16,610 nucleotides of DNA from Candidatus Desantisbacteria bacterium CG1_02_49_89 (GTDB taxonomy: Bacteria > Desantisbacteria > UBA1551). Position 1 is the first letter of the stretch; each line of letters starts with the position of its first letter. This document shows positions 1 to 16,610 of this stretch, in pieces. The DNA lies in assembly GCA_001871075.1 (NCBI GenBank), contig MNUP01000004.1:1-16610 (forward strand). The letters are read 5' to 3'. A program made the translations under genes and the position numbers. The notes beneath the pieces were generated by a model. It was not told the DNA's origin, did no database searches, and saw only the letters and a list, made by a program, of their open reading frames with translations.

Positions 1-1
1 A

Positions 2-2257: not shown

Positions 2258-2300
2258 TATTTATCTATTGATGTTCGCTTAATTGATTGACTTCTTTTGA

Positions 2301-2410
2301 TGTCATTGCAACCCGCCCTTGTCCGCCAATTCTTATGGTGGAAGTATTCGTGGCGGGGAAGCAATCCCGTCGTTAAAAACGAGATTGCTTCGCTATTGCT
2401 CGCAAAGACA
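2301..2410. repeat. Short element with imperfect terminal inverted repeats, copy 1
   Basis: The element starts TGTCATTGC and ends GCAAAGACA, which are inverted repeats matching at 8 of 9 bases. Inside is a hairpin with perfect 9-bp arms (GAAGCAATC at 2358-2366, GATTGCTTC at 2383-2391) and an inner CGTT/AACG stem. It contains no ORF. A second copy with the same ends and the GATTGCTTCG block lies at 13121-13212. It looks like a non-autonomous MITE- or REP-like element. Confidence 0.7.
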
Positions 2411-2451
2411 ACTGTCAAGATATTACGCAATACTCAGTAACTATATTATAT

Positions 2452-2479
2452 TTGACAATTTTTATTTTTATGCTATAAT
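2452..2479 (+). promoter_or_regulatory. Sigma70 promoter with perfect -35 and -10 boxes
   Basis: TTGACA (2452-2457), a 16-bp spacer and TATAAT (2474-2479), with an extended -10 TGC directly before the -10 box. Transcription should start near 2486. It is the best promoter in the window and lies upstream of hisH, with a leader of about 190 nt. The -10 box is only 16 bp ahead of a terminator hairpin, so the promoter appears to feed an attenuated leader. Confidence 0.85.
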
Positions 2480-2495
2480 TATATTATAAAGCAAC

Positions 2496-2529
2496 GGCGC
2501 TTTTTCAATGGAGAAGAAGCGTCTTTTTT
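2496..2529 (+). terminator. Leader intrinsic terminator with ANTAR-like hexaloop
   Basis: An 11-bp stem (GGCGCTTTTTC 2496-2506 with GAAGAAGCGTC 2513-2523, two G-U pairs) closes a six-base loop AATGGA (2507-2512). Six T residues follow directly (2524-2529). This is the form of an intrinsic terminator. The loop has A at position 1 and G at position 4, the pattern described for RNA hairpins bound by ANTAR antiterminators. The predicted start site is only about 10 nt upstream, so there is no room for the usual first hexaloop hairpin. Confidence is high for the terminator and moderate for ANTAR recognition. Confidence 0.75.
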
Positions 2530-2541
2530 GTTTAAAAGACG
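2520..2541 (+). promoter_or_regulatory. Hairpin that competes with the leader terminator
   Basis: CGTCTTTT (2520-2527) pairs perfectly over 8 bp with AAAAGACG (2534-2541) around a six-base TTGTTT loop. It uses four bases of the terminator's 3' arm and four of its U-tract, so the two folds exclude each other. It could act as an antiterminator stem, though it is AT-rich and weaker than the terminator. Confidence 0.5.
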
Positions 2542-2576
2542 ATTACGGTGATTATTAAAAGATGATTACAGTGATT
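2541..2576. repeat. GATTACGGTGATT dispersed repeat, two units
   Basis: GATTACGGTGATT (2541-2553) and GATTACAGTGATT (2564-2576) are two direct units of a family that recurs upstream of the GAF-ANTAR gene (9585-9620), between pstC and pstA and between pstB1 and pstB2. No gene is visible in 2577-2673 before hisH. Confidence 0.75.
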
Positions 2577-2623
2577 GTCTAAAGAAGATGCTTGATAAAG
2601 TAATTTTAATATTTTTAACTAGG

Positions 2624-2648
2624 ATCCAGGATCTAGCATCCAGGATCT
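2624..2648. repeat. ATCCAGGATCT direct repeat before hisH
   Basis: The 11-base unit ATCCAGGATCT occurs at 2624-2634 and again at 2638-2648, a 14-base period. It lies in the hisH leader, about 25 bp ahead of the start codon. Confidence 0.75.
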
Positions 2649-2673
2649 GAGCGAACAGTCTTCGGGAGACGGC

Positions 2674-3288
2674 ATGATAGCGGTAATAAACTACGGGGCG
2701 GGAAACCTATACAGCATAAGCAAGGCACTCGAAGGGCTGGGCGCGAGCGTAAAAATAACCGACTCCCCTTCTGTTCTTAGTTCTGCTTCCGCGGTCGTGC
2801 TTCCGGGTGTCGGCGCTTTTGACGAAGCTATGGCTATTCTGCGGAAAACCGGGCTGGCGGATGCCATAAAAAGATCTGCCGAAGGCGGCAAGCCGTTTTT
2901 GGGCATATGCCTGGGCATGCAGCTCCTGTTCAGCGGAAGCGAAGAAGGCAAAAGCAAGGGCCTTGGTATTTTTAAAGGCACGGTCAGGCAGTTCAGCCGC
3001 AAACTGAAGGTACCGCACATGGGATGGAATGTTGTCAGGCAAAGAAATCAGTCACCGTTATGGAAAGGCTTGCCTGGCCGAAGGTGCTGGATGTATTTCG
3101 CGCACTCTTTCTACCCAATACCAGCGGATAAGGAAGTTATCGCCGCAACAACCGATTACGGCGTTAAATTCGCCTCGATGGTCCGCAGGGATAACGTGTT
3201 AGGGACCCAGTTCCACCCGGAAAAGAGCGGCACTTACGGGCTTATATTCCTTAAGAACTTCCTTGAACTAATTCATACGAAAGAATAA
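2674..3288 (+). CDS. hisH: Imidazole glycerol phosphate synthase, glutaminase subunit
   Basis: HisH hydrolyses glutamine and channels ammonia to HisF for the histidine pathway step that makes imidazole glycerol phosphate and AICAR. The 204-residue protein has the normal family length. It shows the class I amidotransferase triad: Cys79 in the nucleophile elbow GICLGMQ, and His181 and Glu183 in QFHPEKSG. The N-terminal NYGAGNLYS and the LPGVGAFD oxyanion region are typical of HisH. The start ATG has GGGAG (2664-2668) five bases upstream. The partner hisF follows after 92 bp. No other his genes are present, so this is a split-off pair or a cluster arranged by glutamine use. The paralogous HisH/HisF pair of surface-sugar pathways is less likely because HisF keeps both catalytic aspartates. 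Confidence 0.95.
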   Translation: MIAVINYGAGNLYSISKALEGLGASVKITDSPSVLSSASAVVLPGVGAFDEAMAILRKTGLADAIKRSAEGGKPFLGICLGMQLLFSGSEEGKSKGLGIFKGTVRQFSRKLKVPHMGWNVVRQRNQSPLWKGLPGRRCWMYFAHSFYPIPADKEVIAATTDYGVKFASMVRRDNVLGTQFHPEKSGTYGLIFLKNFLELIHTKE

Positions 3289-3313
3289 CCACGGAGACAC
3301 AGAGGCACAGAGA
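3287..3313. repeat. CCACGGAG-type dispersed repeat
   Basis: A unit rich in CACGGAG and CACAGAG begins in the hisH stop codon. Close relatives are at 7806-7833 (same strand) and 4476-4496 (opposite strand). Shorter CCACGGAT forms occur near 7843 and at 9440-9560. Confidence 0.8.
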
Positions 3314-3328
3314 AATTCTTGGTTTTAA

Positions 3329-3360
3329 ACTTGACCCTTGATACTTGACCCTTGATACTT
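3329..3360. repeat. Perfect 14-bp tandem duplication before hisF
   Basis: ACTTGACCCTTGAT occurs twice head to tail (3329-3342, 3343-3356), followed by the first four bases of a third copy. It ends about 10 bp before the hisF ribosome binding site. Confidence 0.9.
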
Positions 3361-3380
3361 TATTTAAAAAAGGAGAGGAT

Positions 3381-4322
3381 ATGCTGGCAAAAAGGATAAT
3401 ACCGTGCCTGGACGTGAAGAATGGCAGGGTTGTCAAGGGCATACACTTCAGGAACCTGCGGGATGCCGGTGACCCTGTGCAGAACGCGGCTTTCTACAGC
3501 AAAGAAAGCGCTGATGAGCTTGTATTCCTGGATATCACGGCTACGATTGAAAACCGCAAAACTGTCGTTAATATGGTCAGGAAAACAGCTGCCAGGGTAT
3601 TTATCCCTTTCGCGGTCGGCGGTGGGATCAGGAACATCAAAGACATCGGGGTCCTGCTCAGATCAGGCGCGGACAAGATCTCCATAAACACCGCGGCTAT
3701 AAAAGACCCCCTGCTGATAAAAAGGGCTTCCCGCAAATTCGGGAGCCAGTGCGTGGTGGTGGCGATAGACGCCAAAAGAATCACCAAAGTCAAAAGTCAA
3801 ATTGCAAAATGTAAAATGTCCCCCCTTGCCCTTAATGGGCAGGCAGAGGGGATTTCGCTGCCAGCTCAACAAAAGTTTAAAACCCTTACACGTAACACGT
3901 TATCCGCCCCGATGAATATCGGGGCGAGACCTCGCCCCAGTGCTTACTGGGGCGGGCACCTTACACCGTCTTCAAGGTGGGAAGTTTACGTCAACGGCGG
4001 GAATACACCGACCGGCATAGACGCGGTGAAGTGGGCGAAGAAAGCGGAAAAACTGGGGGCCGGCGAGATACTTCTGACAAGCATGGACAGGGACGGAACT
4101 TTAGACGGGTACGACATCCCCCTTACGCGCGCTGTCAGCGAAGCCGTGAATATCCCGGTGATAGCGTCCGGCGGAGTGGGAAACCTGAAACACCTGTATG
4201 ACGGCATAGCGAAGGGAAAGGCGGACGCTGTGCTTGCCGCTTCCATATTCCACTATAGAAAATATTCGATACGCCAGGCAAAGCAATACCTTAGAAAACG
4301 GGGCATACCCGTGAGAATATAG
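3381..4322 (+). CDS. hisF: Imidazole glycerol phosphate synthase, cyclase subunit, with a 66-residue insertion
   Basis: HisF condenses PRFAR with ammonia from HisH to form imidazole glycerol phosphate and AICAR. It is a TIM barrel. The two catalytic aspartates sit at the standard positions Asp11 (PCLDVKNG) and Asp130 (VVVAIDAKR). [19 protein letters not shown] and AASIFHY complete the barrel. The start is the ATG at 3381, with AGGAG at 3371-3375; an upstream in-frame ATG (3345) lies in repeat DNA and adds non-family residues. The protein is 313 residues against about 250 for the family. The excess is residues 134-199, directly after AIDAKR and before WEVYVNGG, encoded by palindromic repeat-like DNA (3780-3977). 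The frame is intact on both sides. The insertion falls in the loop after strand 5, on the active-site face, where a hairpin tip could tolerate it. Activity is likely but not certain. Confidence 0.93.
3780..3977. repeat. Composite repeat inserted in frame into hisF
   Basis: These 198 bp (66 codons, no stop) have no counterpart in normal HisF. They contain three overlapping perfect palindromes: CGCCCCGAT/ATCGGGGCG (3905-3926), GGGGCGAG/CTCGCCCC (3921-3938) and CCCCAGT/ACTGGGG (3935-3952). Bases 3848-3875 match 9347-9374 of the purF-ANTAR gap at 25 of 28 positions. GTCAAAAGTCAAAT (3789-3802) is the exact reverse complement of 4455-4468 in the hisF-guaA gap. The segment is thus built from the same repeats that fill the spacers. 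Confidence 0.85.
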
Positions 4323-4328
4323 GAAAAG

Positions 4329-4360
4329 CGTGTCAACGTGTCAACGTGTCAGCGTGTCAG
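4329..4360. repeat. Octamer CGTGTCAA array after hisF
   Basis: Four head-to-tail 8-base units: CGTGTCAA twice, then CGTGTCAG twice. They begin seven bases after the hisF stop codon. The rest of the 208-bp gap (to 4530) holds a small palindrome (AGATTTC/GAAATCT near 4412-4429), a copy of the CCACGGAG repeat on the opposite strand (4476-4496), and no ORF of note. Confidence 0.9.
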
Positions 4361-4530
4361 AGTTTAAAAATAATCCTGGATTAAGGAATTTTACCTTTGA
4401 CTTTGTCCCCGCAGATTTCTTATGAAATCTAGACGCTGGGATCCCTTAGGGACGATTTGACTTTTGACCTTTGAGTTCTCCGTGCCTCCGTGGTAATTTT
4501 GTAAATCCGTATGCATCCGCAAAAACAAAA

Positions 4531-6066
4531 ATGCAAGAGACAATATTAATACTAAATTTCGGCTCGCAGTATGACCAGCTCATAGCCCGCAGAGTGCGGG
4601 AAAACAACGTATTCTGCCGTGTTGTCCCATACAATATCAATCCCCGCAAGATAAGGGAGATCTCACCCAAGGGCATCATTTTTACAGGCAGCCCTGCCAG
4701 CACCTACAAAAGCAACATCAAACCCAAATCTGAAATCTTTGATCTTGGGATCCCGATTTTGGGCATATGCTACGGAATGCAGGTCATCGCGCACATGCTC
4801 AAAGGGAAGGTCAGCAAAGCAAAAAAAAGGGAATACGGGAACACGCCCGTCTCAATCCTGCGCAACGAAAAATTATTCGCCGGGATCCCGAAAAAATTTA
4901 TCTGCTGGATGAGCCACGGGGACTATGTGGCAAAAATGCCCTGCGGTTTTGAAAGGATCGCATCCACAGGCAACACGGACATTGCCGCGATGGCGGATAA
5001 AAAAAGGAATATCTGGGCTGTCCAGTTCCACCCTGAAGTGATCCACACCCGGCACGGCAAACAGCTTTTCCGAAACTTCCTTTATAAAATATGCGGGTGC
5101 AGCGGCGACTGGACAATGGGATCATTAATCAAAGAGTCGATCGCTGATATCAGGGCAAGCGCAAAGGGCGGTAGGGTCCTTCTCGGCTTAAGCGGGGGCG
5201 TTGATTCGTCCGTGTGCGCGGTCCTTATTCATAAAGCGATAGGCAAGAAACTTACCTGTATATTCGTGGACAACGGCCTGCTGAGGAAAAACGAGGGAAA
5301 ACGGGTGCAAGACGTTTTCCGCAGGAATTTCAGGCTTAACCTGCGGTATGTCAATGCCTCCCGCAGGTTCCTGAAGAAACTCAAAGGCGTGCTTGACCCT
5401 GAACGCAAACGCAAGATCATAGGAATAGAATTCATCCGCGTTTTTGAGGCAGAGGCAAAAAAGCTGGGAAAGGCCGAATACCTCGCTCAGGGAACCCTGT
5501 ACCCGGACGTGATCGAATCCCGCTCAGCTCTTGGCGGGCCAAGCGCCCGCATCAAAACCCACCACAACGTGGGAGGCCTGCCGGAAAAAATGAAACTGAA
5601 ACTCATAGAACCGCTTAAATATCTTTTCAAGGATGAGGTAAGAAAGCTGGGCCTGGAACTCGGGATGCCCGAAGAGATCATATGGCGCCAGCCTTTCCCC
5701 GGGCCCGGGCTTGCGGTGCGGGTCATAGGTGAAGTCACAAAGGAACGCCTGGATATACTGCGGGAAGTTGACAGGCTGGTTGTGATCGCGATGAAAAAAG
5801 CAGGGCTTTACAGAAAATTATGGCAGTCATTCGCAGTCCTGCTGCCGGTAAAAAGCGTGGGAGTGATGGGCGATGAGCGGACCTATGAGAACGCGGCCGC
5901 CCTGCGCATGGTAACAAGCGAGGACGCGATGACAGCTGACTGGGCGCGCGTCCCCTACACCATCCTCGCTGAGCTTTCAAACCAGATAATAAACGAGGTT
6001 AAGGGCGTGAACCGGGTTGTATACGACATCTCTTCCAAACCGCCTTCCACGATCGAGTGGGAATGA
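4531..6066 (+). CDS. guaA: GMP synthase (glutamine-hydrolysing)
   Basis: GuaA converts XMP, ATP and glutamine to GMP, the last step of guanine nucleotide synthesis. The 511-residue protein has all parts in order. The N-terminal class I glutaminase has Cys80 in GICYGMQ, and His167 and Glu169 in QFHPEVIHT. The ATP pyrophosphatase domain has the PP-loop SGGVDSS (residues 221-227). The C-terminal dimerisation domain ends in the family's typical [14 protein letters not shown]. The start is the ATG at 4531 because [14 protein letters not shown] begins the family homology. An in-frame ATG at 4471 would add 20 residues encoded by the CCACGGAG repeat. No clear ribosome binding site is visible. It lies between hisF and pyrG on the same strand. 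Confidence 0.97.
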
Positions 6067-6074
6067 TTAATACA

Positions 6075-6203
6075 GTCGTGCGTCGGACGTCTTGCGTCGA
6101 ACGTTTCACTACGTCATGCATATAAATCTTTAAAACATACAACCCGCTAGGGCGATGTATGACGGTATTTTCGTACGACGCACGACTTACGACGTTCGAC
6201 GAA
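6075..6203. repeat. CGTCGAA-family heptamers in both orientations, guaA-pyrG gap
   Basis: The left half has units such as CGTCGGA, CGTCTTG and CGTCGAA in one orientation. The right half has the reverse orientation (TACGACG, CACGACT, TTCGACG). Between them lies an AT-rich core. The two halves share 11-12-base inverted matches but are not collinear, so they do not form one clean hairpin. The same heptamer is inside the mannosidase gene at 1948-1982. The array ends just before the pyrG ribosome binding site. Confidence 0.75.
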
Positions 6204-6216
6204 TACAGGAGAAAGA

Positions 6217-7800
6217 ATGGCAAAATACATATTCGTAACAGGCGGGGTTGTTTCTTCACTTGGCAAAGGGATCACTGCGGCATCCATAGGATGCCTGTTA
6301 AAGAACTGCGGGCTTAAGGTCAACATCCTCAAGATAGACCCTTATATCAACGTGGACCCGGGGACAATGAGCCCTTTCCAGCACGGCGAGGTTTATGTGA
6401 CTGATGACGGAGCTGAGACAGACCTGGACTTGGGCTATTACGAACGGTTTATGGACGTAAGCCTTACTCAGGATAACAATTTCACTACCGGAAGGATATA
6501 CGACACGATCATATCACGGGAAAGGCGGGGAGATTTCCTGGGCGGGACTGTCCAGGTGATCCCCCATGTTACCAATGAAATTATATCCAGGATCAGGAAA
6601 CTCGGGTCTAACTGCGACGTGGTCATCACAGAGATCGGAGGGACCACCGGAGATATAGAAGGCCTGCCTTTCCTGGAAGCTATAAGGCAGTTCAGGCTGG
6701 ACCTGGGAAGGGAAAACGCCTGCTACGTGCACGTGACACTTGTCCCCTACATACGCGCGGCTGATGAGATGAAAACAAAACCCACCCAGCAGAGCGTTGC
6801 GAAACTGAGGGAGATAGGCATCGAACCCCAGATCCTTATATGCAGGACCGAAAAAACCCTTCCGGAAAGCATGAAGAAAAAGATCGCTCTGTTCTGCAAT
6901 GTCCAGGAAAAAGCCGTTATAGAGGAAAAGGACGTATCTTTCAGCATTTACGAAGTCCCTGTGATGCTCAAGAAACAGGGAATGGACAGGCTCATACTTG
7001 AAATGCTGAATCTAAAAACCAGGCCCAGCAAGATGTCCGGCTGGGAAAAGATGCTTGACAAGATGAAACGGAGTAGAAAAAAGGTCACTATCGCCGTTGC
7101 GGGCAAATACACGAACCTGCGGGACGCCTATAAAAGCATATGGGAAGCGCTCTTGCACGCGGGAACCGCGAATTCCGCCAGCATCCAGGTAAAATACGTT
7201 GACGTTGAGACCAGGAACCTGAAAAAAGAGCTGAAGGGAGCGGACGGCATACTTGTTCCCGGAGGATTCGGGGACAGGGGCATAGAGGGAAAGATCGAGG
7301 TGGTCAGGTTCGCGAGGGAAAACAAGATACCGTTCCTGGGCCTGTGCCTGGGGATGCAGTGCGCTGTCATTGAGTTCGCCAGGAACGTATGCGGGTTGAA
7401 AGGCGCGAACAGCACGGAATTCAATCCCAAAACGCCCTTTCCTGTGATCGACATGATGCTCGAACAGAAAAAGCTGGCACAGAAAGGCGGGACAATGCGG
7501 CTGGGTGAATACCCCTGCGAGATAAAGAAAAATTCCCTGGCGCTGCGCGCGTATAAAAAGAACCTTGTTTTCGAACGCCACCGCCACAGGTACGAGCTGA
7601 ATAACGAATTCAGGGAATTGCTGGAATTAAAGGGGCTGAAAATAACCGGGGAATGCAGGGGCAGGAAACTTGTCGAGATCGTGGAGATCGAAAAGCACCC
7701 CTGGTTTGTCGCGGTGCAGTTCCACCCGGAATTTAAATCCAGGCCCAACCGCCCCCATCCCCTGTTCACGGATTTCATAAAGTCTGCAGTTAAGCGTTAA
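6217..7800 (+). CDS. pyrG: CTP synthase
   Basis: PyrG aminates UTP to CTP with ATP and glutamine. The 527-residue protein is full length. The N-terminal synthetase domain opens with [16 protein letters not shown], which contains the P-loop, and continues with [15 protein letters not shown] and [10 protein letters not shown]. The C-terminal class I glutaminase carries Cys377 (FLGLCLGMQ), and His503 and Glu505 ([10 protein letters not shown]). The ATG at 6217 has a good AGGAG (6207-6211) five bases upstream, right after the heptamer array. The neighbours guaA and purF are also glutamine amidotransferases of nucleotide synthesis. Nothing in the protein is unusual. Confidence 0.98.
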
Positions 7801-7805
7801 ATGAT

Positions 7806-7899
7806 AACCACGGAGACACGGAGGCACAGAGGAATACATTCAGCCACGGATAATACCTACTTGTCAACTTTGTAAACTTCTGTAAACTATGTAAACTGT
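7806..7899. repeat. CCACGGAG repeat and TGTAAACT tandem units, pyrG-purF gap
   Basis: 7806-7833 repeats the CACGGAGACACGGAGGCACAG-like unit also seen after hisH. At 7870-7899 an 8-base core TGTAAACT recurs three times at 9-10 base spacing. No gene is visible in this 115-bp gap. Confidence 0.75.
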
Positions 7900-7915
7900 A
7901 TTTTGTTAAGGAAAA

Positions 7916-9310
7916 ATGATTAAGCATTCGTGCGGGATTTTTGGGGTATTCGGGCACAGGAACGCGGCTGAGCTGACGTACCTGGGGCTTTATGCTCTTC
8001 AGCACCGGGGACAGGAAAGCGCCGGCATCGTTGTTTCGGACGGCCGAAGTATGAGGCACTGGCGCGGCATGGGCCTTGTCAGCGAGGTCTTTACCCCTGA
8101 GGTCCTCTCAGGCCTTCAGGGAAAAACAGCCATCGGCCATGTCCGCTATTCAACAACAGGCTCTTCAACAGCCAAAAACGTCCAGCCCTTCGTTGTCGAG
8201 TATTTCGGGACATCCCTGGCTGTGGCGCACAACGGCAATATAGTGAATGCCGCCGCTTTGCGCGAAAAACTTGAATCCTCCGGTTCCATATTCCAGTCCA
8301 CGATGGACAGCGAACTGCTCCTGCACCTGATAGCTAAATCCAGGGAATCTGATTTCAGAGATAAGGTCTCAGCATCGCTTGGAAAGCTCAAAGGAGCGTT
8401 CTCTATACTCCTGCTGACCGAGAACCAGTTCATTGCCGCAAGAGACCCGCACGGGTTCAGGCCGCTTTGCCTGGGCAGGATAGATGGGGCATGGGTGGTC
8501 TCTTCAGAAACCTGCGCGCTTGACCTTATCCATGCCGGTTACGTGAGGGACGTGGAACCGGGCGAGATCATTTTCTTTGATGAAAACGGCCTGCATTCCT
8601 TCAAACCCCCGACGGAAACAAAACACTCATTCTGCATTTTTGAAATGATATATTTCGCAAGGCCTGACAGTAATATTTTCGGGGGCAATGTTTCCACGGC
8701 AAGAGAATGCCTGGGCATGCGGCTCGCAAAGGAGCACCCGGCAAAAACGGACCTGGTGATGCCGGTCCCTGATTCAGGGACGTACGCGGCGCTTGGGTAC
8801 GCGCAGGAATCAGGCATCCCTTTTGATATGGGTTTTGTAAGGAACCACTACGTGGGCAGGACGTTCATCCAGCCGTCCCAGGAAATAAGGGACCTCGGTG
8901 TCAGGATAAAACTGAACCCCGTGCAGGAAACAGTCAGGGGCAAACGCATAGCCGTAATTGAAGACTCGATAGTCAGGGGTACAACCAGCAGCATAAGGAT
9001 GAAGGCTCTGCGGGAAGCAGGCGCGAAGGAGATACACATGAGGGTATCCTGCCCTCCCCTGCGCCACCCCTGTTTTTACGGGATAGATTTCCCGACACGC
9101 GCCGAACTCACCGCGGCATCGCACAGCGTTGAGGAGATACGCAGGCGCATTGGGGTTGACACCCTGGGTTACCTCAGCCTTGAAGGCATGCTTGGATCGA
9201 TGCCGGTGTCCGGAAAAAACTTCTGCACTGCCTGCTTTACCGGCAGGTATCCGGTGCAGGTGAAGAAAGAGCTCTCAAAATACGCATTCGAGAAAAAATG
9301 CAAAGATTAA
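7916..9310 (+). CDS. purF: Amidophosphoribosyltransferase (Fe-S type)
   Basis: PurF makes phosphoribosylamine from PRPP and glutamine, the first committed step of purine synthesis. The 464-residue protein begins MIKHSCGIFGVFG. Cys6 is the N-terminal nucleophile of the class II (Ntn) glutaminase, exposed after removal of a five-residue propeptide. The PRPP loop is VIEDSIVRGTTS. Four cysteines, Cys240, Cys386, Cys437 and Cys440 (FCIFEM, HPCFYG, CTAC), have the same spacing as the 4Fe-4S ligands of the Bacillus subtilis enzyme (236, 382, 433, 436 as I recall them), so this is the propeptide-processed, oxygen-sensitive form. AAGGA (7908-7912) precedes the ATG. The cluster suits an organism with at least partly anaerobic life, though PurF alone does not prove it. 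Confidence 0.97.
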   Translation: MIKHSCGIFGVFGHRNAAELTYLGLYALQHRGQESAGIVVSDGRSMRHWRGMGLVSEVFTPEVLSGLQGKTAIGHVRYSTTGSSTAKNVQPFVVEYFGTSLAVAHNGNIVNAAALREKLESSGSIFQSTMDSELLLHLIAKSRESDFRDKVSASLGKLKGAFSILLLTENQFIAARDPHGFRPLCLGRIDGAWVVSSETCALDLIHAGYVRDVEPGEIIFFDENGLHSFKPPTETKHSFCIFEMIYFARPDSNIFGGNVSTARECLGMRLAKEHPAKTDLVMPVPDSGTYAALGYAQESGIPFDMGFVRNHYVGRTFIQPSQEIRDLGVRIKLNPVQETVRGKRIAVIEDSIVRGTTSSIRMKALREAGAKEIHMRVSCPPLRHPCFYGIDFPTRAELTAASHSVEEIRRRIGVDTLGYLSLEGMLGSMPVSGKNFCTACFTGRYPVQVKKELSKYAFEKKCKD

Positions 9311-9638
9311 GATTTCCACCCCCGCAGCCCGTTATCGGGCTAACGCGGGGATTTCGCTTCCCGCTCAACGAAAGCACTCCGCCCGTCTTTCAGCGGGCGA
9401 GACTTCGCCCACCTGAAAGGATGGGCGAGGAAAGCACGAAAAATTCAGCCACGGATATCCACGGATAAATAATTTTTTAGCTTTTACAAATGGCTAAAAA
9501 CTAATGACAAATAACTGCCTTTTAACCACGGATGCACACGGATTTGCACGGATTAATCTTCTATCTGATACTTGACACTAAAAATAATCACCGTAATCGC
9601 AGTTAAAAATCACCGTAATCATGATTTTAGGGGGAACA
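9311..9638. repeat. 328-bp repeat-filled gap between purF and the GAF-ANTAR gene
   Basis: No gene is visible. From left to right there is a 12-bp stem with a 3-base bulge (9320-9350; no U-tract, so a poor terminator). Then comes the segment shared with the hisF insertion (9347-9374), followed by nested palindromes CGCCCG/CGGGCG (9380-9399), GGGCGA/TCGCCC (9395-9410) and CTTTCAG/CTGAAAG (9387-9419). Further right are CCACGGAT units near 9454-9553 and a TTTTTAGC/GCTAAAAA inverted pair (9474-9500). Two AATCACCGTAATC units lie at about 9587-9620. A TTGACA at 9572 lacks a matching -10 box. Confidence 0.75.
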
Positions 9639-10340
9639 ATGGCTGAGAAAAAAGTATCGTCGCAAATGAAGCAGATCGAAGCGCTGTCAAAAATAAGCCA
9701 GGCGATATCGTCGGATCTGTACCTTGAGGATATCCTGCGCCTGATAGTGACCGTTACAGCCGAGGTGATGAACTCCAAAATATGCTCCCTGATGCTCCTG
9801 AACGAGAGGGGCGAACTGGAGCTTAAAGCCACCCAGGCTGTAAGCGAGGCGTATAGGAAAAAACCTTCCCTGAAGCTGGGCGAAGGCATAGCCGGAAAAG
9901 CGGCGCGGGAGAACAAGCCGGTGATCGTCCCTGACGTGAAAGAAGAATCCAGCTATATGAGCCAGGATATTGCGGTGCGGGAAGGCCTTTGCTCGCTCTT
10001 AAGCCTTCCGCTTGCCGCGAAAGGAAAGGTCATAGGCGTCCTGAATCTTTATACCTCATCGCCGCACAAGTTCACGAAGAGCGAAATAGCAACACTCACT
10101 GCCGTTGCCAACCAGTCAGCTGTCGTCATAGAGAATTCCAGGCTCCTGGTGCAGACAAAAGTGGTGCAGGAAGAACTTGAAACAAGGAAACTCGTTGAGC
10201 GCGCGAAGGGAATACTCATGAAACAGGGACTCTCGGAGCAGGAGGCGTTCCGGAAGATCCAGAAGAAGAGCATGGACCTGCGCAAACCGATGAAGGATAT
10301 CGCCGAGGCAATAATCCTTACAAGCGAGATAGAAAAATAA
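9639..10340 (+). CDS. GAF-ANTAR transcription antitermination regulator
   Basis: Predicted cytoplasmic sensor and RNA-binding antiterminator. Residues about 15-165 form a GAF domain (LYLEDILRLIVTVTAEVM, then KLGEGIAGKAARENKPVIVPDV and the C-terminal VIGVLNLYT and AVVIENSRL). A short helix leads into an ANTAR domain at about 175-230 (LETRKLVERAKGILMKQGLSEQEAF followed by MDLRKPMKDIAEAII). Proteins with ANTAR bind paired hexaloop hairpins and prevent termination, often in nitrogen-metabolism operons. There is no receiver or kinase domain, so the GAF domain probably senses a small molecule; the ligand cannot be told. The ATG at 9639 is preferred over the one at 9621 because AGGGGG (9629-9634) sits four bases upstream. 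It lies between the amidotransferase block and the pst operon and could serve either. Confidence 0.88.
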   Translation: MAEKKVSSQMKQIEALSKISQAISSDLYLEDILRLIVTVTAEVMNSKICSLMLLNERGELELKATQAVSEAYRKKPSLKLGEGIAGKAARENKPVIVPDVKEESSYMSQDIAVREGLCSLLSLPLAAKGKVIGVLNLYTSSPHKFTKSEIATLTAVANQSAVVIENSRLLVQTKVVQEELETRKLVERAKGILMKQGLSEQEAFRKIQKKSMDLRKPMKDIAEAIILTSEIEK

Positions 10341-10344
10341 GAAC

Positions 10345-10394
10345 CTGAAGCTGCGCTTCAGAACCTTGTTGCTTGCCGACTAAAAGTCGAAGGT
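10345..10394 (+). promoter_or_regulatory. Two adjacent hairpins upstream of pstS
   Basis: Hairpin 1 is CTGAAGC, loop TGC, GCTTCAG (10345-10361). Hairpin 2 is CGACT, loop AAA, AGTCG (10377-10389), enclosed by ACCTT/AAGGT (10363-10367, 10390-10394) with a 9-base bulge. No U-tract follows. The loops have three bases, so they do not match the ANTAR hexaloop pattern. They may be a repeat or a pstS leader element. No promoter was found in this 87-bp gap. Confidence 0.45.
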
Positions 10395-10427
10395 ATGACG
10401 CAATGAAATCGCAGCAGAAACGGTAAA

Positions 10428-11240
10428 ATGATGGAAAAAGGTATCTTTAAATTAACAATTTGCTCCCTCGCTGTAATTTGCGCCTGCGGGTGCGCCAGAA
10501 GGCATTCCATAACCATGGCCGGGTCCACGGCATTCCTCCCCTTCGCCGAACAACTGGCTGAGGATTACATGAAAAAGTTCCCCGGGACAAACATAAACGT
10601 CCAGGGCGGAGGTTCTGCCGTAGGTATACAGTCCGCCCTGAACGGAACAGCGCAGATAGGAATGGCTGACTTGATAACACTCCCGGAATCGGCAAAGGAC
10701 CTGAAGAAATTCGTTGCCGCAAATGACGGAATATGCCTGATAGTGCACCCGTCCAATAAAGTGGAAAACCTGACAACCAAGCAGATAAGGGGAATTTATT
10801 CAGGCGAGATCAAAAACTGGAAGGAAGTCGGCGGGATCGACAAGCCCATAACGGTCGTGTCCAGGGAGGCAGGATCAGGCACGAGGTCCTCGTTTGAAGA
10901 CCTTATGTTCAAGGGCATAAAACTGGCGGGCAGCGCGATAATCGGTGATTCGAACGGCACTGTCCGCGAAATGGTCATCAACGATCCATACGCCATCGGA
11001 TATATTTCGCACGGCGTCGTTAATGAGAAGGTTAAAGCGTTGAAAGTTGACGGAGTTCCTCCGGAATACGACAACTTCGTATGCGGCAGGTACAAGCTGC
11101 TGCGCCCCATTTACCTGCTGATAAGGGCTGAATACGAAACCCAGACAAAAGAAATCCTTGAATATATATTAGGCCCGGAAGGACAGGACACTATTAAGGA
11201 ACAGGGACTAATTCCGGCCGGTGCCTGCGGCAAATACTGA
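10428..11240 (+). CDS. pstS: Phosphate ABC transporter, substrate-binding lipoprotein
   Basis: PstS captures phosphate outside the inner membrane and delivers it to PstCA. The 270-residue protein starts with a lipoprotein-type signal (KLTICSLAVICACGC) in which Cys22 (or Cys20) would be lipidated. The mature part shows the family's AGSTAFLPFAEQLAEDY, VQGGGSAVGIQSALNGTAQIGMADL and SREAGSGTRSSFED (from residue 145), which supply phosphate-binding residues. It opens the pst operon; pstC starts 13 bp after the stop. Two ATGs are adjacent (10428, 10431), and neither has a strong ribosome binding site. It is somewhat shorter than the E. coli protein but close to the compact PstS of many other bacteria. 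Confidence 0.93.
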   Translation: MMEKGIFKLTICSLAVICACGCARRHSITMAGSTAFLPFAEQLAEDYMKKFPGTNINVQGGGSAVGIQSALNGTAQIGMADLITLPESAKDLKKFVAANDGICLIVHPSNKVENLTTKQIRGIYSGEIKNWKEVGGIDKPITVVSREAGSGTRSSFEDLMFKGIKLAGSAIIGDSNGTVREMVINDPYAIGYISHGVVNEKVKALKVDGVPPEYDNFVCGRYKLLRPIYLLIRAEYETQTKEILEYILGPEGQDTIKEQGLIPAGACGKY

Positions 11241-11253
11241 CAGGAATAGGAAC

Positions 11254-12102
11254 ATGAAAAACGCAAAGGAAGTCGTGGTTGAAAAAAGCCTGATGCTGAT
11301 CGCGTTCTCCGCGATCTTCATGCTTTTCTTGATAGCCGTGTTTATTTTTAAAGAAGGCAGCCCCCTGATATTCAAGATCGGCTTGAAGAATTTCATATTA
11401 AGCGCAAAATGGTCGCCTCTGGAAGGGCAATTCGGCATTCTCGCGATGATCATTGGTTCGCTGTGGATCACAGCAGGAGCTCTTGTTATCGGCGTTCCCC
11501 TGGGCCTGGGGTGCGCGATACTCCTTTCTGAATTTTTGCCCCGCGGGATAACAGCATTCTTAAAACCTACCATCGAGCTGCTTGCCGGAATACCTTCTGT
11601 TGTTTACGGATTCATAGGCGTGGTCGTGCTTGTTCCATTCATAAGGGAACGCTTCGGCGGTCCCGGGCTATCTGTTCTTGCGGGATCGATCATTCTGGGG
11701 ATCATGATCCTGCCGACAATAATAAGTATTTCCATCGACGCGCTGCAGGCAGTGCCTCGCTCCTACAGGGAAGGTTCCCTCGCGCTCGGAGCGACACAGT
11801 GGCAGACGATCAGCATGGTTACGCTGAAGGCGGCGCGCTCAGGGATCCTGGCAAGCATCATACTCGGTATGGGAAGGGCTGTGGGCGAAACTATGGCGGT
11901 AATTATGGTGGCAGGTAACGCCGTGAAAATACCCAATTCCATTTTTAATCCCGCGCGCACGCTGACAACCAACATAGCGCTGGAAATGGGTTTCGCGACC
12001 GGTGACCACAGGGCTGCGCTTTTCGCCACAGGGGTAGTGCTTTTCGTCATAATAATGATCCTGAACATCCTGGCAAATTATGCATTCGGCAAACGCAAGT
12101 AA
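11254..12102 (+). CDS. pstC: Phosphate ABC transporter, permease subunit PstC
   Basis: Inner-membrane half of the phosphate channel, working with PstA. The 282-residue protein has about six membrane segments: an N-terminal helix (LMLIAFSAIFMLFLIAVFIF), then helices around ILAMIIGSLWITAGALVIG, IPSVVYGFIGVVVLV, LSVLAGSIILGIMILPTII, the GMGRAVGETMAVIMV region and a C-terminal one ending near FVIIMILNILANYAF. The cytoplasmic coupling loop EGSLALGATQWQTI (residues 173-186) contacts the ATPase. The ATG at 11254 is chosen because AGGAA (11242-11246) lies upstream; a GTG at 11221 would overlap pstS and add 11 residues unlike the family. Confidence 0.94.
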   Translation: MKNAKEVVVEKSLMLIAFSAIFMLFLIAVFIFKEGSPLIFKIGLKNFILSAKWSPLEGQFGILAMIIGSLWITAGALVIGVPLGLGCAILLSEFLPRGITAFLKPTIELLAGIPSVVYGFIGVVVLVPFIRERFGGPGLSVLAGSIILGIMILPTIISISIDALQAVPRSYREGSLALGATQWQTISMVTLKAARSGILASIILGMGRAVGETMAVIMVAGNAVKIPNSIFNPARTLTTNIALEMGFATGDHRAALFATGVVLFVIIMILNILANYAFGKRK

Positions 12103-12236
12103 ATATGATTACACCGATTGTTAACACAGATTACACCGATTACAAACTATACAACTAATTTCGTTATTTAATTGAATATTTTTAAATCTGTGTAATCGTT
12201 TTACAGAATCTGTGTAATCAAATCCGAAGGATTCTA
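12103..12236. repeat. GATTAC-family units in both orientations between pstC and pstA
   Basis: Two direct GATTACACCGATT units (12107-12119, 12129-12141) face two AATCTGTGTAATC units (12185-12197, 12207-12219) that are their reverse complement at 12 of 13 bases. The four can fold into a long hairpin. There is no ORF or promoter. The right end supplies the pstA ribosome binding site region (AAGGA at 12227-12231). Confidence 0.8.
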
Positions 12237-13073
12237 ATGAGGATAGATCCGAAGGTCTCCCAGAGAATTATGGTAACGGTCCTGAGCCTTGCCACGGGTT
12301 TAGCCCTGGTTATATTATTTTTTATTATCATTTTTATACTGAGCAAGGGGATTCCGGTGCTTAACTGGAAATTCCTTTCAACCTTTCCTTCAAAAATGGG
12401 CAAGGCCGGGGGGATCCTGCCCACCATAGCCGGGACGTTCATCCTGACCCTTGTCGCGTTAGTGTTCGCGGTCCCGCTGGGCGTGGGAGCCGCAATATAT
12501 CTTGCGGAATACATCCGGGAAGGGAAAACCACAAAAATCGTCAGGTTCGGAGCGGATTGCCTTGCCGGGATACCGTCTATCATTTTTGGGCTGTTCGGGT
12601 TCATATTGTTTGTTGTTATCCTCAAAATGGGATGGTCGATCCTGTCAGGCGGGCTGACCCTTGCTTTTATGGTCCTTCCGACGATCATCAGGACAAGCGA
12701 GGAGGCGGTCAAATCCGTTCCTTATTCCTGGCGGGAGGTAAGCCTGTCACTGGGAGCGACGAAGTGGGAGACCATAAGGAAGGTTGTGCTGCCGAATGCC
12801 GTTCCCGGGATCCTGACCGGCATCATACTCAGCGTGGGCAGGAGCATCGGGGAGACCGCGGCCATAATTTTCACCGCGGGCTCATCCCTGAGACTGCCAA
12901 CTTCTCTGTTCGATTCCGTGCGCACGATGTCCGTGCATTTCTATATACTCTCCCGCGAAGGCATTTCGATGAAAAACGCGTACGGCACAGCCGCGGTGCT
13001 CGTGATCCTTATACTCGCGATAAACCTTGCCGCTTACTGGATATTGCACAGGTTTACAAAGAGAAACACATAA
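12237..13073 (+). CDS. pstA: Phosphate ABC transporter, permease subunit PstA
   Basis: Second half of the phosphate channel. The 278-residue protein has about six membrane segments, including VTVLSLATGLALVILFFIII, TIAGTFILTLVALVFAVPLG, IPSIIFGLFGFILFVVI and a C-terminal VLVILILAINLAAYWIL. The coupling loop EVSLSLGATKWETI (residues 167-180) is intact, followed by VVLPNAVPGILTGIILSVGR and SIGETAAIIFTAGSS. AAGGA (12227-12231) lies five bases before the ATG. It is separated from pstC by 134 bp and from pstB1 by 185 bp of repeat DNA, wide for an operon whose subunits form one complex. Confidence 0.94.
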   Translation: MRIDPKVSQRIMVTVLSLATGLALVILFFIIIFILSKGIPVLNWKFLSTFPSKMGKAGGILPTIAGTFILTLVALVFAVPLGVGAAIYLAEYIREGKTTKIVRFGADCLAGIPSIIFGLFGFILFVVILKMGWSILSGGLTLAFMVLPTIIRTSEEAVKSVPYSWREVSLSLGATKWETIRKVVLPNAVPGILTGIILSVGRSIGETAAIIFTAGSSLRLPTSLFDSVRTMSVHFYILSREGISMKNAYGTAAVLVILILAINLAAYWILHRFTKRNT

Positions 13074-13120
13074 ATAGGACCACAAGATTCCACGAGATTC
13101 GCACGCGATACAGCCCTTGT

Positions 13121-13212
13121 TGTCATTGCGAACGATAGTGAAGCTCCGAAGGAGTCCCTTTGGGACAATCCGGCTTTTAGATTGCTTCGTCGTTCCACTC
13201 CTCGCAAAGACA
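13121..13212. repeat. Short element with imperfect terminal inverted repeats, copy 2
   Basis: It begins TGTCATTGC and ends GCAAAGACA like the copy at 2301-2410, and shares the internal GATTGCTTCG block. Two perfect small hairpins lie inside: CTCC-GAA-GGAG and GTCCC-TTT-GGGAC (within about 13143-13168). It sits between pstA and pstB1. The rest of that gap holds an ACAAGATTCCACGAGATTC unit and no gene. Confidence 0.7.
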
Positions 13213-13258
13213 AAAGAACAACCTTCTGGTGAAAATCTGTGTAATCTATGCGAATGAA

Positions 13259-14011
13259 ATGAGCAAAATCAGCGTGAAAAAACTTGACATATTCTTCGGC
13301 AAGACACACGCGCTCAAGAACGTCACCCTGGACGTAAGCGCAAACAAAGTTCTTGCGGCCATAGGCCCGGCCGGAAGCGGAAAAACGACATTCCTCAGGA
13401 GCCTTAACCGCCTCAACGACCTGAACCCGGATATGCGCTATACGGGAAAGATACTTCTTGATGGGAAAAATATATACGATGAAGATGTTAATCCCGTTGA
13501 ACTGCGAAGGAAGGTGGGGATGATCTTCGCTCTGCCTATTCCCCTGCCTATGAGCATCTGTGAGAATATCACTTACGGCCCGAAACTTGCGGGCACAAAA
13601 AACAGAGCGGAGCTCCGGGAACTTGTGGAAAAAAGCCTTGAAGATTCCTTCCTCTGGGATGAAGTGAAAGACAGGCTTGACGACCCCGCGATGAAACTGT
13701 CAGGAGGGCAGCAGCAGCGGCTGTGCATAGCCCGGACCCTTGCGCTTAAACCTGATGTGATACTTATGGACGAGCCCTGCTCCGGGCTTGATCCGATCTC
13801 CACAGCCAAAATTGAAGAGGCAATGACTGCGTTAAAAAAGGAATACACGATAATAATCGTCACAAATAACACCAAGCAGGCCGCAAGGGTCGGCGACAAC
13901 ACGGCGTTTTTCCTTATGGGCGAGCTCATCGAATACGGTGAAACTGGGAAGATGTTCACCGCGCCAAATGATAAAAGGACCGAGGAATATATATCAGGCC
14001 GCTTCGGATAA
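13259..14011 (+). CDS. pstB1: Phosphate ABC transporter ATPase, degenerate Q- and H-loop paralogue
   Basis: PstB ATPases power phosphate import. This 250-residue protein is family length and ends in the typical DKRTEEYISGRFG. Walker A is GPAGSGKTT (36-44, Lys42). The ABC signature is a perfect LSGGQQQR (147-154). Walker B is VILMDEPCS (Asp171, catalytic Glu172). Two key positions are changed. The Q-loop, normally VFQ before KPNPFP, reads IFALPIPLP, so Gln is Ala91. The H-loop, normally VTHN, reads VTNN, so His is Asn203. The aromatic A-loop residue is Phe (FFG) where PstB usually has Tyr. The ATG at 13259 (MSKISVKKLDIFFG) is chosen over an upstream GTG at 13229 that lies in repeat DNA; no strong ribosome binding site is visible. 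pstB2 follows 90 bp on. Its losses complement those of PstB2. Confidence 0.93.
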   Translation: MSKISVKKLDIFFGKTHALKNVTLDVSANKVLAAIGPAGSGKTTFLRSLNRLNDLNPDMRYTGKILLDGKNIYDEDVNPVELRRKVGMIFALPIPLPMSICENITYGPKLAGTKNRAELRELVEKSLEDSFLWDEVKDRLDDPAMKLSGGQQQRLCIARTLALKPDVILMDEPCSGLDPISTAKIEEAMTALKKEYTIIIVTNNTKQAARVGDNTAFFLMGELIEYGETGKMFTAPNDKRTEEYISGRFG

Positions 14012-14015
14012 AATA

Positions 14016-14093
14016 AGATTACGGTGATTTTATACTGATGATTACGGTGATTAAAAAATAATCACTGTAATCTCTTTTAAAATCACTGGAATC
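14016..14093. repeat. GATTACGGTGATT repeats forming a hairpin between pstB1 and pstB2
   Basis: One GATTACGGTGATT unit near 14017 is followed by an inverted pair: 14040-14053 pairs with 14059-14072 over 14 bp with one G-U, around an AAAAA loop. TCTTTTAAAA follows, a weak U-run. A further partial unit (AATCACTGGAATC) runs to the pstB2 ribosome binding site. It could act as a weak attenuator or RNA stabiliser inside the operon. Confidence 0.75.
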
Positions 14094-14101
14094 AGGAAGT
14101 A

Positions 14102-14857
14102 ATGATGAATGCGATAGAAGTTAAAAATCTATCTTTGCACTACGGCAGCTTCCAGGCGCTGAAAAACGTAAACGTCCAGTTCCAGGAAAAGATGATTACC
14201 GCTCTCATCGGCCCTTCGGGATGCGGGAAGTCCACCCTTTTGCGCTGCCTGAACAGGATGAACGACCTTATAGAGGGCGTAAAAATAACCGGCGTGGTGA
14301 ACTTCCGGGACATAAACATATATGCCCCCGGCACTGATGTAGTAGAGCTGCGCAGGCATGTCGGGATGGTGTTCCAGCGCCCCAACCCCTTTCCCCTATC
14401 CGTGTTTGATAACGTGGCTTACGGGTTGCGCGTCCACCAGGAGATGAAGAAAATACAGCTTTCCGCGATTGTGGAACGCAGCCTTCAGGCAACCGGACTG
14501 TGGGACGACCTGAAAGACAAACTTAGCGAAACAGCCACAGAGCTGCCGCTCTACCAGCAGCAGCTACTCTGCATTACAAGGCTGATCGCGATCGAACCTA
14601 AGGTGATCCTCATGGACGAGCCCTGCTCTGCCCTTGACCCCATAGCCACCGCGAAGATAGAGGAACTGATGCTTGAACTTAAGAAGAAGTATACCATAGT
14701 GATTGTCACGCACAACATGCAGCAGGCCGCAAGGGTGTCGGACTACTCCGGCTTTATGCTGATGGGCGAGCTCATAGAATTCAACAAGACAGGCAGGATA
14801 TTCACAAATCCTGACGATAAAAGGACCCAGGACTACATAACAGGCCGTTTCGGCTAG
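14102..14857 (+). CDS. pstB2: Phosphate ABC transporter ATPase, degenerate-signature paralogue
   Basis: Second PstB of the operon, 251 residues, clearly paralogous to PstB1 along its whole length. Walker [10 protein letters not shown] (37-45), Q-loop VFQRPNPFP (Gln92), Walker [10 protein letters not shown] (Asp172, Glu173), H-loop VTHNMQQ (His204) and A-loop Tyr14 are all canonical. The ABC signature is destroyed: where PstB reads LSGGQQQRLCIAR this reads [13 protein letters not shown] (148-160), so Ser-Gly-Gly became Pro-Leu-Tyr and the following Arg became Leu. The frame is open on both sides and the flanking sequence is normal, so this is not a simple frameshift. AGGAAG (14094-14099) precedes two adjacent ATGs; the second (14105) is better spaced. 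Alone it should not complete an ATP site; with PstB1 it should supply the competent one. Confidence 0.93.
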
Positions 14858-14905
14858 GGGACTGTCCCATTTACGGGCCGAAGGCCGTAGAATGGGACTG
14901 TCCCC
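14857..14905. repeat. Palindromic GGGACTGTCCC element between pstB2 and phoU
   Basis: The arms GGGGACTGTCCCA (14857-14869) and TGGGACTGTCCCC (14893-14905) are inverted repeats with a single central mismatch. Each contains the odd palindrome GGGACTGTCCC. A bulged inner stem (ACGGGCC/GGCCGT) lies between. The element starts on the last base of the pstB2 stop codon. It has REP-like form but no clear U-tract. Confidence 0.8.
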
Positions 14906-14923
14906 ACTAAACTGGAGGTTAAT

Positions 14924-15595
14924 ATGGAACGCCACTTTGACGAGGAACTAAAGGAACTTAAGAACAGGCTCCTGTACGCGGCAGGACTCGCTGAAACGAT
15001 GATCTCGGACTCTGTAAAAGCTCTTACCGAGCGCAGGGGTGTGATCATTGACGAGGTTAATAAGAAAGAAGATGAGCTGAACCTGCTTGAGATAGAGATA
15101 GACGACAGGGCGATAAAAATGATGGCCCTGCACCAGCCGGCAGCGGTTGACCTGAGGTTCCTTGTTTCAGCGCTCAAGATCAACACCGAGATCGAGCGCA
15201 TGGGAGACATGGCAATAAATATCTGCGACGCTGCCAGAGAACTTTTAAAACAGCCACCGCTTAAGCCCCTGATAGACATACCCAGGATGGCGCAGATTAC
15301 CGGTCAGATGATCAAAGACAGCCTTGATGCGTTCGTCAGGCAGGACGCGGAACTCGCCAAATCAGTCTGCAAAAGGGATGATGAAGTGGATGACCTGAAA
15401 GACCAGATCTTCAGGGAGCTCCTGACATATATGATGTCTGACCCCAACACGATAGAAAGAGCCATGGACCTGATCCTGGTCTCCCGCCATCTTGAGCGCA
15501 TAGCGGACCACACCACGAACATAGGCGAGGAAGTCATCTTCATGGTCCAGGGCAAGGACATCAGGCACCACATAGAAGAGAAGAAACAGAATTAA
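14924..15595 (+). CDS. phoU: Phosphate uptake regulator PhoU
   Basis: PhoU restrains Pst uptake and, where a PhoR-type kinase exists, links transporter state to signalling. The 223-residue all-helical protein has the family's two three-helix bundles, each with a metal-binding ExxxD motif: EIERMGD (Glu91 to Asp95) and LERIADHTTN (Glu191 to Asp195). MMALHQPAAVDLRFL and the N-terminal HFDEELKELKNRLL are typical. The ATG has a strong GGAGG (14914-14918) five bases upstream. It is the last classical pst gene, and arsM follows after only 13 bp, so the two are almost certainly cotranscribed. No phoR or phoB is in the window. Confidence 0.96.
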   Translation: MERHFDEELKELKNRLLYAAGLAETMISDSVKALTERRGVIIDEVNKKEDELNLLEIEIDDRAIKMMALHQPAAVDLRFLVSALKINTEIERMGDMAINICDAARELLKQPPLKPLIDIPRMAQITGQMIKDSLDAFVRQDAELAKSVCKRDDEVDDLKDQIFRELLTYMMSDPNTIERAMDLILVSRHLERIADHTTNIGEEVIFMVQGKDIRHHIEEKKQN

Positions 15596-15608
15596 AGCGA
15601 GGTGTAAA

Positions 15609-16451
15609 ATGAAAGAGGAAAAAATAAAGAAAGTGATAAGAGAGGGCTATGGCAGGATAGCGAAGGGAAAAAGCACCTGCTGCGGGCCGAAAAAATCCTG
15701 CTGCGAAGGCGGTTCCATAGCCGAGATTGTCAGTAAAAACATAGGGTACACCGACGAGGAACTCGGTTCGGTCCCTGAAGGCGCAAACCTGGGCCTGGGC
15801 TGCGGAAACCCCACAGCGCTTGCGTCCTTAAAGGAAGGTGAAACCGTCGTTGACCTCGGCTCAGGCGCCGGGCTTGACTGTTTCCTCGCAGCGGACAAGG
15901 TCGGCGCGAAAGACCGGGTCATAGGCATAGATATGACGCCTGAAATGGTCAAGAAAGCCAGGGAAAACGCAGGAAAAGGCAGATACGCGAACGTGGAATT
16001 CAGGCTGGGCGAGATAGAGAAACTGCCGGTTGACAGCAATTCCGTTGACGTTATCATTTCCAACTGCGTGATCAACCTTTCTCCGGACAAGCTAAAAGTC
16101 TTCGCAGAAGCGTTCAGGGTCTTAAAGCCCGGCGGAAGGCTGATGGTCTCGGACATCGTTTTATTAAAAGAACTTCCGGACCTGATCAAAAAGTCTGTGG
16201 CGGCATACGTCGGCTGCCTCGCGGGCGCGATGATGAAGGAAGACTACATTGAAGCGGTAAGGGGCGCGGGCTTTAAGGAAGTAAAAATATCGGGCGAGGC
16301 GGCTTTCCCGGTTGAGGACATAATCAGCGACCCGGTGGCGCAGGCGATCATCAAGACGATCAGGATGCCAGAGGAAAAAATAAAGGAATTCGCGAGCTCT
16401 GTCGTGAGCATAAAGATTTCGGCAATAAAGGGGACGGGTTCATTTAAATAA
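15609..16451 (+). CDS. arsM: Arsenite S-adenosylmethionine methyltransferase
   Basis: ArsM methylates As(III) with S-adenosylmethionine, giving methylated and volatile arsenicals. The 280-residue protein has the class I methyltransferase motif VVDLGSGAGLDCFLAA and a downstream IGIDMTPEMVKKAREN. The arsenic-binding cysteines expected for the family are visible: Cys65 (LGLGCGNP), Cys153 (SNCVINLS) and Cys203 (YVGCLAG), the last two 50 residues apart as in the well-studied algal enzyme. An N-terminal CCGPKKSCC (24-32) adds two vicinal cysteine pairs. GAGG (15599-15602) lies six bases before the ATG. It is 13 bp behind phoU. No arsR, arsC or arsenite pump is in the window. The last codons (GTGSFK) and the stop lie inside a perfect palindrome, so the C-terminal tail is partly repeat-derived. 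Confidence 0.93.
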   Translation: MKEEKIKKVIREGYGRIAKGKSTCCGPKKSCCEGGSIAEIVSKNIGYTDEELGSVPEGANLGLGCGNPTALASLKEGETVVDLGSGAGLDCFLAADKVGAKDRVIGIDMTPEMVKKARENAGKGRYANVEFRLGEIEKLPVDSNSVDVIISNCVINLSPDKLKVFAEAFRVLKPGGRLMVSDIVLLKELPDLIKKSVAAYVGCLAGAMMKEDYIEAVRGAGFKEVKISGEAAFPVEDIISDPVAQAIIKTIRMPEEKIKEFASSVVSIKISAIKGTGSFK

Positions 16452-16469
16452 ATGAACCCGTCCCCTTTT
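16427..16469 (+). terminator. Strong palindromic terminator spanning the arsM stop codon
   Basis: A perfect 20-bp inverted repeat (16427-16446 with 16449-16468) with a 2-base centre and a GGGGACGGGTTC core, ending in TTTT (16466-16469). The arsM TAA (16449-16451) is in its 3' arm. It should end the pst-phoU-arsM transcript. Its symmetry also lets it serve the opposite strand, and its form resembles REP palindromes. Confidence 0.85.
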
Positions 16470-16589
16470 AACAAAAGGCGCTTATCCCCTATAGTCCTAA
16501 TATTAAACCGGGACTAACATGGGGGACTTTACTTTTTGCGCATGAAAAACATGTCCGAAACATGCACATAAAAAATGCATATAAAAAAC

Positions 16590-16610
16590 TTGACAAAAAG
16601 AGATTATTAT
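16590..16610 (+). promoter_or_regulatory. Partial promoter (-35 box) at the right edge
   Basis: TTGACA at 16590-16595 is a perfect -35 box; a -10 box at 16-18 bp spacing would fall just outside the window. The 120 bp before it (16470-16589) hold no ORF, a TAGTCC/GGACTA inverted pair and several CATG/ATGCAT words. It probably serves a + strand gene beyond the edge. Confidence 0.45.

Follow-up and report, generated by a model that had tools for sequence, protein, structure and literature searches.

Reciprocally degenerate tandem PstB ATPases in a phosphate importer operon of Candidatus Desantisbacteria predict an asymmetric heterodimer

The phosphate importer PstSCAB of E. coli (PDB 9k3x, 9k3s) is the canonical counterpart of the locus described here and has the same gene set, TIGR00972 family, fold and operon order. 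In E. coli, the Q-loop Gln, the LSGGQ signature and the H-loop His are found in one PstB gene product, whereas the two PstBs of the present locus have diverged and show reciprocal losses. Pst operons with a pair of neighbouring pstB genes also occur in Bacillota, as PstB1/PstB2 in E. faecalis and PstBA/PstBB in B. subtilis. The authors of the E. faecalis study state that tandem pstB paralogues had not been studied earlier (PMC12096839). The tandem PstBs of E. faecalis and of Clostridium tunisiense (locus L067) are canonical in both copies, unlike the pair reported here.

That exporters can have degenerate ATP sites is well established (PMC7756269). TAP1/TAP2, TM287/288, BmrCD, CFTR and Pdr5 resemble the present pair in that one nucleotide-binding domain (NBD) has core losses and its partner has lost the signature, all on one composite site. 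They are exporters or a channel, whereas PstB1 and PstB2 are separate ATPase subunits of a type I importer. One degenerate ATP site has also been predicted for the importer ATPases RbsA/NupO (PMC11466899), but there a single polypeptide carries both NBDs in fused form, the second of them has no Walker A Lys, and the substrates are sugars or nucleosides.

The DNA analysed (16,610 nucleotides, hereafter the window) is from Candidatus Desantisbacteria bacterium CG1_02_49_89 (GCA_001871075.1, contig MNUP01000004.1, positions 1-16,610). It contains a pst operon with the order pstS-pstC-pstA-pstB1-pstB2-phoU, all genes lying on the forward strand:

10428..11240, forward strand, pstS, phosphate-binding protein (TIGR02136)
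11254..12102, forward strand, pstC, permease subunit (TIGR02138)
12237..13073, forward strand, pstA, permease subunit (TIGR00974)
13259..14011, forward strand, pstB1, PstB-type ABC ATPase, Q-loop and H-loop degenerate, signature intact (translation, TIGR00972)
14105..14857, forward strand, pstB2, PstB-type ABC ATPase, Walker A/B, Q-loop and H-loop intact, signature degenerate (translation, TIGR00972)
14924..15595, forward strand, phoU, phosphate signalling protein (TIGR02135)

For pstB2, the ATG at 14102 is as likely a start as that at 14105. PstB1 and PstB2 scored 364.6 and 377.7 bits against TIGR00972, and are members of the PstB family by this score as well as by their location in a pstSCA-phoU operon. 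Both scores exceed the curated cut-off of 343.2 bits, so annotation would flag neither protein; the presence of all motifs in one protein is true of canonical PstB but lies outside the TIGR00972 definition. No third PstB was found in the source genome (2.48 Mb, 93.5% complete), in which the next matches were ordinary ABC ATPases of about 30% identity.

Several other features of the window were recorded. The gaps at 12103-12236, 13074-13258 and 14012-14101 in the pst operon hold AT-rich repeats of the GATTAC/GTAATC type, also present at 9560-9620, and part genes which in relatives adjoin or overlap each other. An Rfam search of the window gave no match. Upstream, pstS is adjoined by the gene of a GAF-ANTAR protein (PF03861, 9621-10340), a putative RNA-binding antiterminator regulator. 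After phoU, a methyltransferase with a Cys-rich N-terminus is encoded at 15609-16451, which resembles arsenite methyltransferase (ArsM); phosphate importers are known to take up arsenate by accident. The hisF gene (3345-4322) has an in-frame insertion of about 60 residues, at about 3800-4000, built of dispersed genomic repeats, pieces of a 201-base stretch matching 44 places in the same genome. The His_biosynth domain is split by the insertion, with one half on either side, and the enzyme may tolerate it.

By ungapped register against E. coli PstB, in which the corresponding residues are Q98, G157 and H210, the motifs of both ATPases are located as follows:

13364..13387, forward strand, PstB1 Walker A, GPAGSGKT, fourth residue still Gly (translation)
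13529..13531, forward strand, PstB1 Q-loop position, Ala91 (codon gct) where the canonical residue is Gln (context GMIFALPIPLP)
13697..13711, forward strand, PstB1 signature LSGGQ, intact (LSGGQQQR; translation)
13865..13867, forward strand, PstB1 H-loop position, Asn203 (codon aat) where the canonical residue is His (context VTNN)
14210..14233, forward strand, PstB2 Walker A, GPSGCGKS, canonical (translation)
14375..14377, forward strand, PstB2 Q-loop Gln (codon cag), canonical (translation)
14543..14557, forward strand, PstB2 signature position, LPLYQ replacing LSGGQ (LPLYQQQLL; translation)
14711..14713, forward strand, PstB2 H-loop His (codon cac), canonical (context VTHN)

The PstB2 residues are Gln92 and His204 when numbered from the ATG at 14102, and Gln91 and His203 from 14105. 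Translation confirmed the preliminary description of this DNA, in which PstB1 was said to keep LSGGQQQR with Ala91 for Gln and Asn203 for His, and PstB2 to keep Gln, His and both Walker motifs with LPLYQ for LSGGQ. Neither protein carries the full ATPase motif set alone; the set is complete only in the pair.

The motifs were assigned to ATP sites by the composite-site geometry established for ABC proteins (PMC7756269). Site I consists of Walker A/B, Q-loop and H-loop of PstB2 with the PstB1 signature, and site II of the same elements of PstB1 with the PstB2 signature. All losses fall on site II and site I is intact, as in heterodimers with a degenerate site. That random decay would not favour losses on one site, as had been argued, is a weak point, because the chance of this outcome is 1/4 once the Q-loop, H-loop and signature losses are given. 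The strong evidence for the pattern is its conservation across relatives and not the argument from a single genome.

Among the relatives found, Ca. Desantisbacteria CG1_02_38_46 is the nearest, at 78-80% identity; its PstB1 has Ala, LSGGQ and Asn, and its PstB2 has Gln, LPLEQ and His. The changes in the window are therefore not assembly errors. A contig scan with a PstB2 query (80 loci), combined with the loci of a first survey, yielded 48 tandem pairs, 47 of them from titled records, and for comparison 61 other PstBs. The reciprocal losses were in opposite partners in each of the 48 pairs, PstB1 preceding PstB2 every time, and neither type occurred as a singleton; the co-occurrence proposed in the preliminary description was thus upheld. 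Relatives with both copies intact were looked for among the close ones, as these would have spoken against the pattern, and not found. The 61 other PstBs were all canonical and no intermediate class was seen.

At the PstB1 Q-loop position, Ala was found in 46 of the 48 pairs (47/49 with the window), with Ser and Pro once each, while the H-loop Asn and LSGGQ were both present in 48/48 (49/49 with the window). PstB2 kept Gln and His in all 48 pairs and never had the second signature Gly; its signatures were LSLEQ (26), LTGEQ (6), LTLEQ (5) and others. With the window included, this Gly was lost in 49/49, to Glu in 47 and to Tyr in two, one of them the window. Signature position 4 is the residue mutated in CFTR G551D. 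A further loss, missed by the preliminary description, affects Gly39 of the PstB1 Walker A, which is replaced by Asn, Arg, Lys, Ser or Gln in 44/49 and likewise belongs to site II; the window keeps Gly. Counted over 14 motif positions in the 49 pairs, deviations numbered 0 at site I and 255 at site II. The pattern is thus conserved among orthologues, as in ABC heterodimers with one degenerate site. Replacement of the Walker B Glu in the degenerate half, which is common but not universal in such heterodimers, was not found: all PstB1s keep the Walker A Lys, the Walker B Asp and the catalytic Glu (Glu172).

The 48 pairs carry at least 11 NCBI phylum labels, by title Omnitrophota, Elusimicrobiota, Planctomycetota, Firestonebacteria, Acidobacteriota, WOR-3 (Caldifarciminota), Aminicenantes, Bacteroidota, Desantisbacteria, Spirochaetota and Margulisbacteria; most of these labels come from metagenome bin names, and some mis-binning is possible. 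In a domain-wide survey of 386 genomes, 257 had a PstB match at E < 1e-85 and at least 20 had the pair, a lower bound since best matches and multi-copy genomes were inspected. This survey added about 15 loci to the 48, giving 63 distinct tandem pair loci and one further. Among the tandem pairs examined, in the set of 48 and in the survey, none had one intact and one degenerate copy. In further tandem PstBs that were looked at (L067 of Clostridium tunisiense, and those of genomes G061 and G201), both copies were canonical. An apparent PstB2-only exception in genome G238 was rejected, as its PstB1 is truncated by the contig end (L154). Genome G331 has a genuine unlinked pair, with pstB1 next to pstCA and pstB2 (L180, G331:C57, 4338-5093) on another contig, away from other pst genes and flanked by an RND efflux pump gene on one side and an RNase E/G-like gene on the other. 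Both keep their type, which indicates that the pair can persist after its physical linkage has gone.

Some divergent loci were also observed. Locus L183 (G039:C35, 3536-6760) encodes three PstBs and an extra PstA-like permease; two of the PstBs are a B1/B2 pair (Pro/Asn and LQLEQ), and the third has LSNGQ and VTNK. A similar divergent pair is found in G173 (L208). The PstB-like ATPases of L217, L218 and L219 have an LSLGQ/LSVGQ signature, VTHILRQ and a Q-loop whose context is shifted (LSQRP). They apparently form another PstB-related family, and no B1-type gene was linked to them in the stretches seen.

In a tree calculated by a quick search after removal of the motif columns, in which two long branches come from L033, the PstB1-type proteins formed one clade (SH-aLRT 100) and the PstB2-type proteins one side of a branch (88), with the tandem copies of Clostridium L067 outside both. 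Judged by this tree, the two types are two old clades. Given the single origin, the co-occurrence of the losses represents one ancestral event followed by retention, not many independent events. Identity is 45-80% within the clades and about 50% between partners, and the PstB1 and PstB2 distances are correlated (Mantel r 0.88, 0/2000 permutations). At least PstC-PstA-B1-B2 is visible at 47/49 loci, and the genes of the pair overlap by 1-4 nt in 24/48. Within the clades, at least 30 changes were counted at site II motif positions versus 0 at the matching site I positions, so continuing drift is tolerated at site II while site I is frozen. The coding sequences show purifying selection on PstB1 and PstB2: pN between the window and L038 was 0.12-0.13 for both, at the level of PstC, PstA and PhoU, with synonymous sites saturated. 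Strict retention of Asn203 (49/49) and of Glu at signature position 4 (47/49) argues for a selected function over free decay.

On these grounds, PstB1 and PstB2 very probably form an asymmetric heterodimer within one Pst importer, with site I catalytic and site II selected as degenerate. PstS-PstC-PstA-PstB1-PstB2 would be a single importer with two non-identical ATPase subunits. Its catalytic site would combine Walker A/B, Q-loop and H-loop of PstB2 with LSGGQ of PstB1; the degenerate site would combine Walker A/B and the Ala/Asn loops of PstB1 with the Lx(L/G)EQ-type signature of PstB2. Like its counterparts in Pdr5, TAP and CFTR, the latter probably serves as a gate or hinge that holds nucleotide, and would not hydrolyse at full rate. 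Transport may then proceed at about one hydrolysis per cycle, or about 1 ATP per phosphate; of the two engines of these importers, one would probably be working and the other idle or regulatory. From the motifs we infer the physical heterodimer, the site chemistry and the stoichiometry. The preliminary description had proposed an obligate heterodimer with a dead site; its reciprocal pattern stood in 48/48 pairs, while 'obligate' and 'dead' stand as inferences.

Site II may not be inert, because PstB1 keeps the Walker A Lys, the Walker B Asp and the catalytic Glu, and residual hydrolysis may occur there. A heterodimer with both sites catalytic, in which Asn and Ala stand in for His and Gln, the altered signature is tolerated and the asymmetry is kinetic, is nevertheless unlikely. 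The invariance of these three residues would fit it, as would the H-loop Asn (49/49), whose strict conservation suggests a kept role; in MRP1, His-to-Asn mutation of one H-loop is tolerated and transport is kept (PMC7756269). However, the deviations at this one site involve three or four motifs, and the second Gly missing from the signature is at the position of CFTR G551D. That mutation lies in LSGGQ and is linked to impaired ATP binding and hydrolysis (PMC10727502). In Pdr5, where NBD2 has LNVEQ, close to the LSLEQ found here, and the NBD1 H-loop is also altered (PMC7756269, PMC8421411), ATP is held at the degenerate site through the cycle and no hydrolysis occurs, although that site also lacks the Walker B Glu which PstB1 keeps (PMC8421411).

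Functional specialisation, with separate PstB1 and PstB2 homodimers doing different jobs such as transport and PhoU signalling, is very improbable. The roles of pstB1 and pstB2 in E. faecalis are indeed non-overlapping (PMC12096839), but both of those copies keep canonical motifs. In the present case neither homodimer would have even one canonical site, the source genome has no other PstB, and the losses all lie on a single composite site, in its opposite halves. Sequencing error, or decay of duplicates that are redundant, of which deviant catalytic motifs are the usual sign, has a negligible chance of accounting for a pattern that recurs in the relative of 78-80% identity and in over 60 further pairs, in proteins as constrained as PstC and PstA; as general explanations, pseudogene decay and assembly error are refuted by the relatives and the constraint.

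The putative asymmetric heterodimer was also modelled. As pstB1 and pstB2 are in frame, a read-through PstB1-linker-PstB2 was submitted to AlphaFold as a tethered dimer, with 13 paired rows. Each domain was well folded (1.2 Å to E. coli PstB 9k3x over 245 columns); the tethered two-domain model gave no dimer arrangement that could be relied on, with a pTM of 0.50 and a deviation of about 12 Å rmsd when both domains were matched to fused NBD pairs. The coupling-helix consensus in pair systems is EVSLSLGA in PstA and EGALALGA in PstC, versus EASLALGA for both in canonical systems. As a guide to which PstB docks on which permease subunit this difference may serve as a lead only, the within-operon identity test being not significant (p 0.09-0.10).

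Degenerate ATP sites have been studied almost entirely in exporters and CFTR, and the reason for site loss is debated. The preliminary description knew of no phosphate importer of this kind, and no prior description of degenerate or reciprocal tandem PstBs in a phosphate importer was found in the open-access literature either.

For annotation the finding is a warning, as TIGR00972 labels both halves as ordinary PstB. It is possible, though with somewhat less than even chances, that the pairs represent a widespread and overlooked importer class of little-cultured phyla, with a single catalytic site, about 1 ATP per phosphate and fixed subunit roles, each PstB being docked on its own permease subunit. 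The degenerate site, with its acidic signature residue and Asn H-loop, would then be a nucleotide-holding gate or an input for phosphate signalling. The canonical homologue in other bacteria offers a matched comparison, with the same substrate and architecture and two active sites versus one, by which the ATP cost per phosphate and the purpose of a degenerate site would become directly testable in E. coli.
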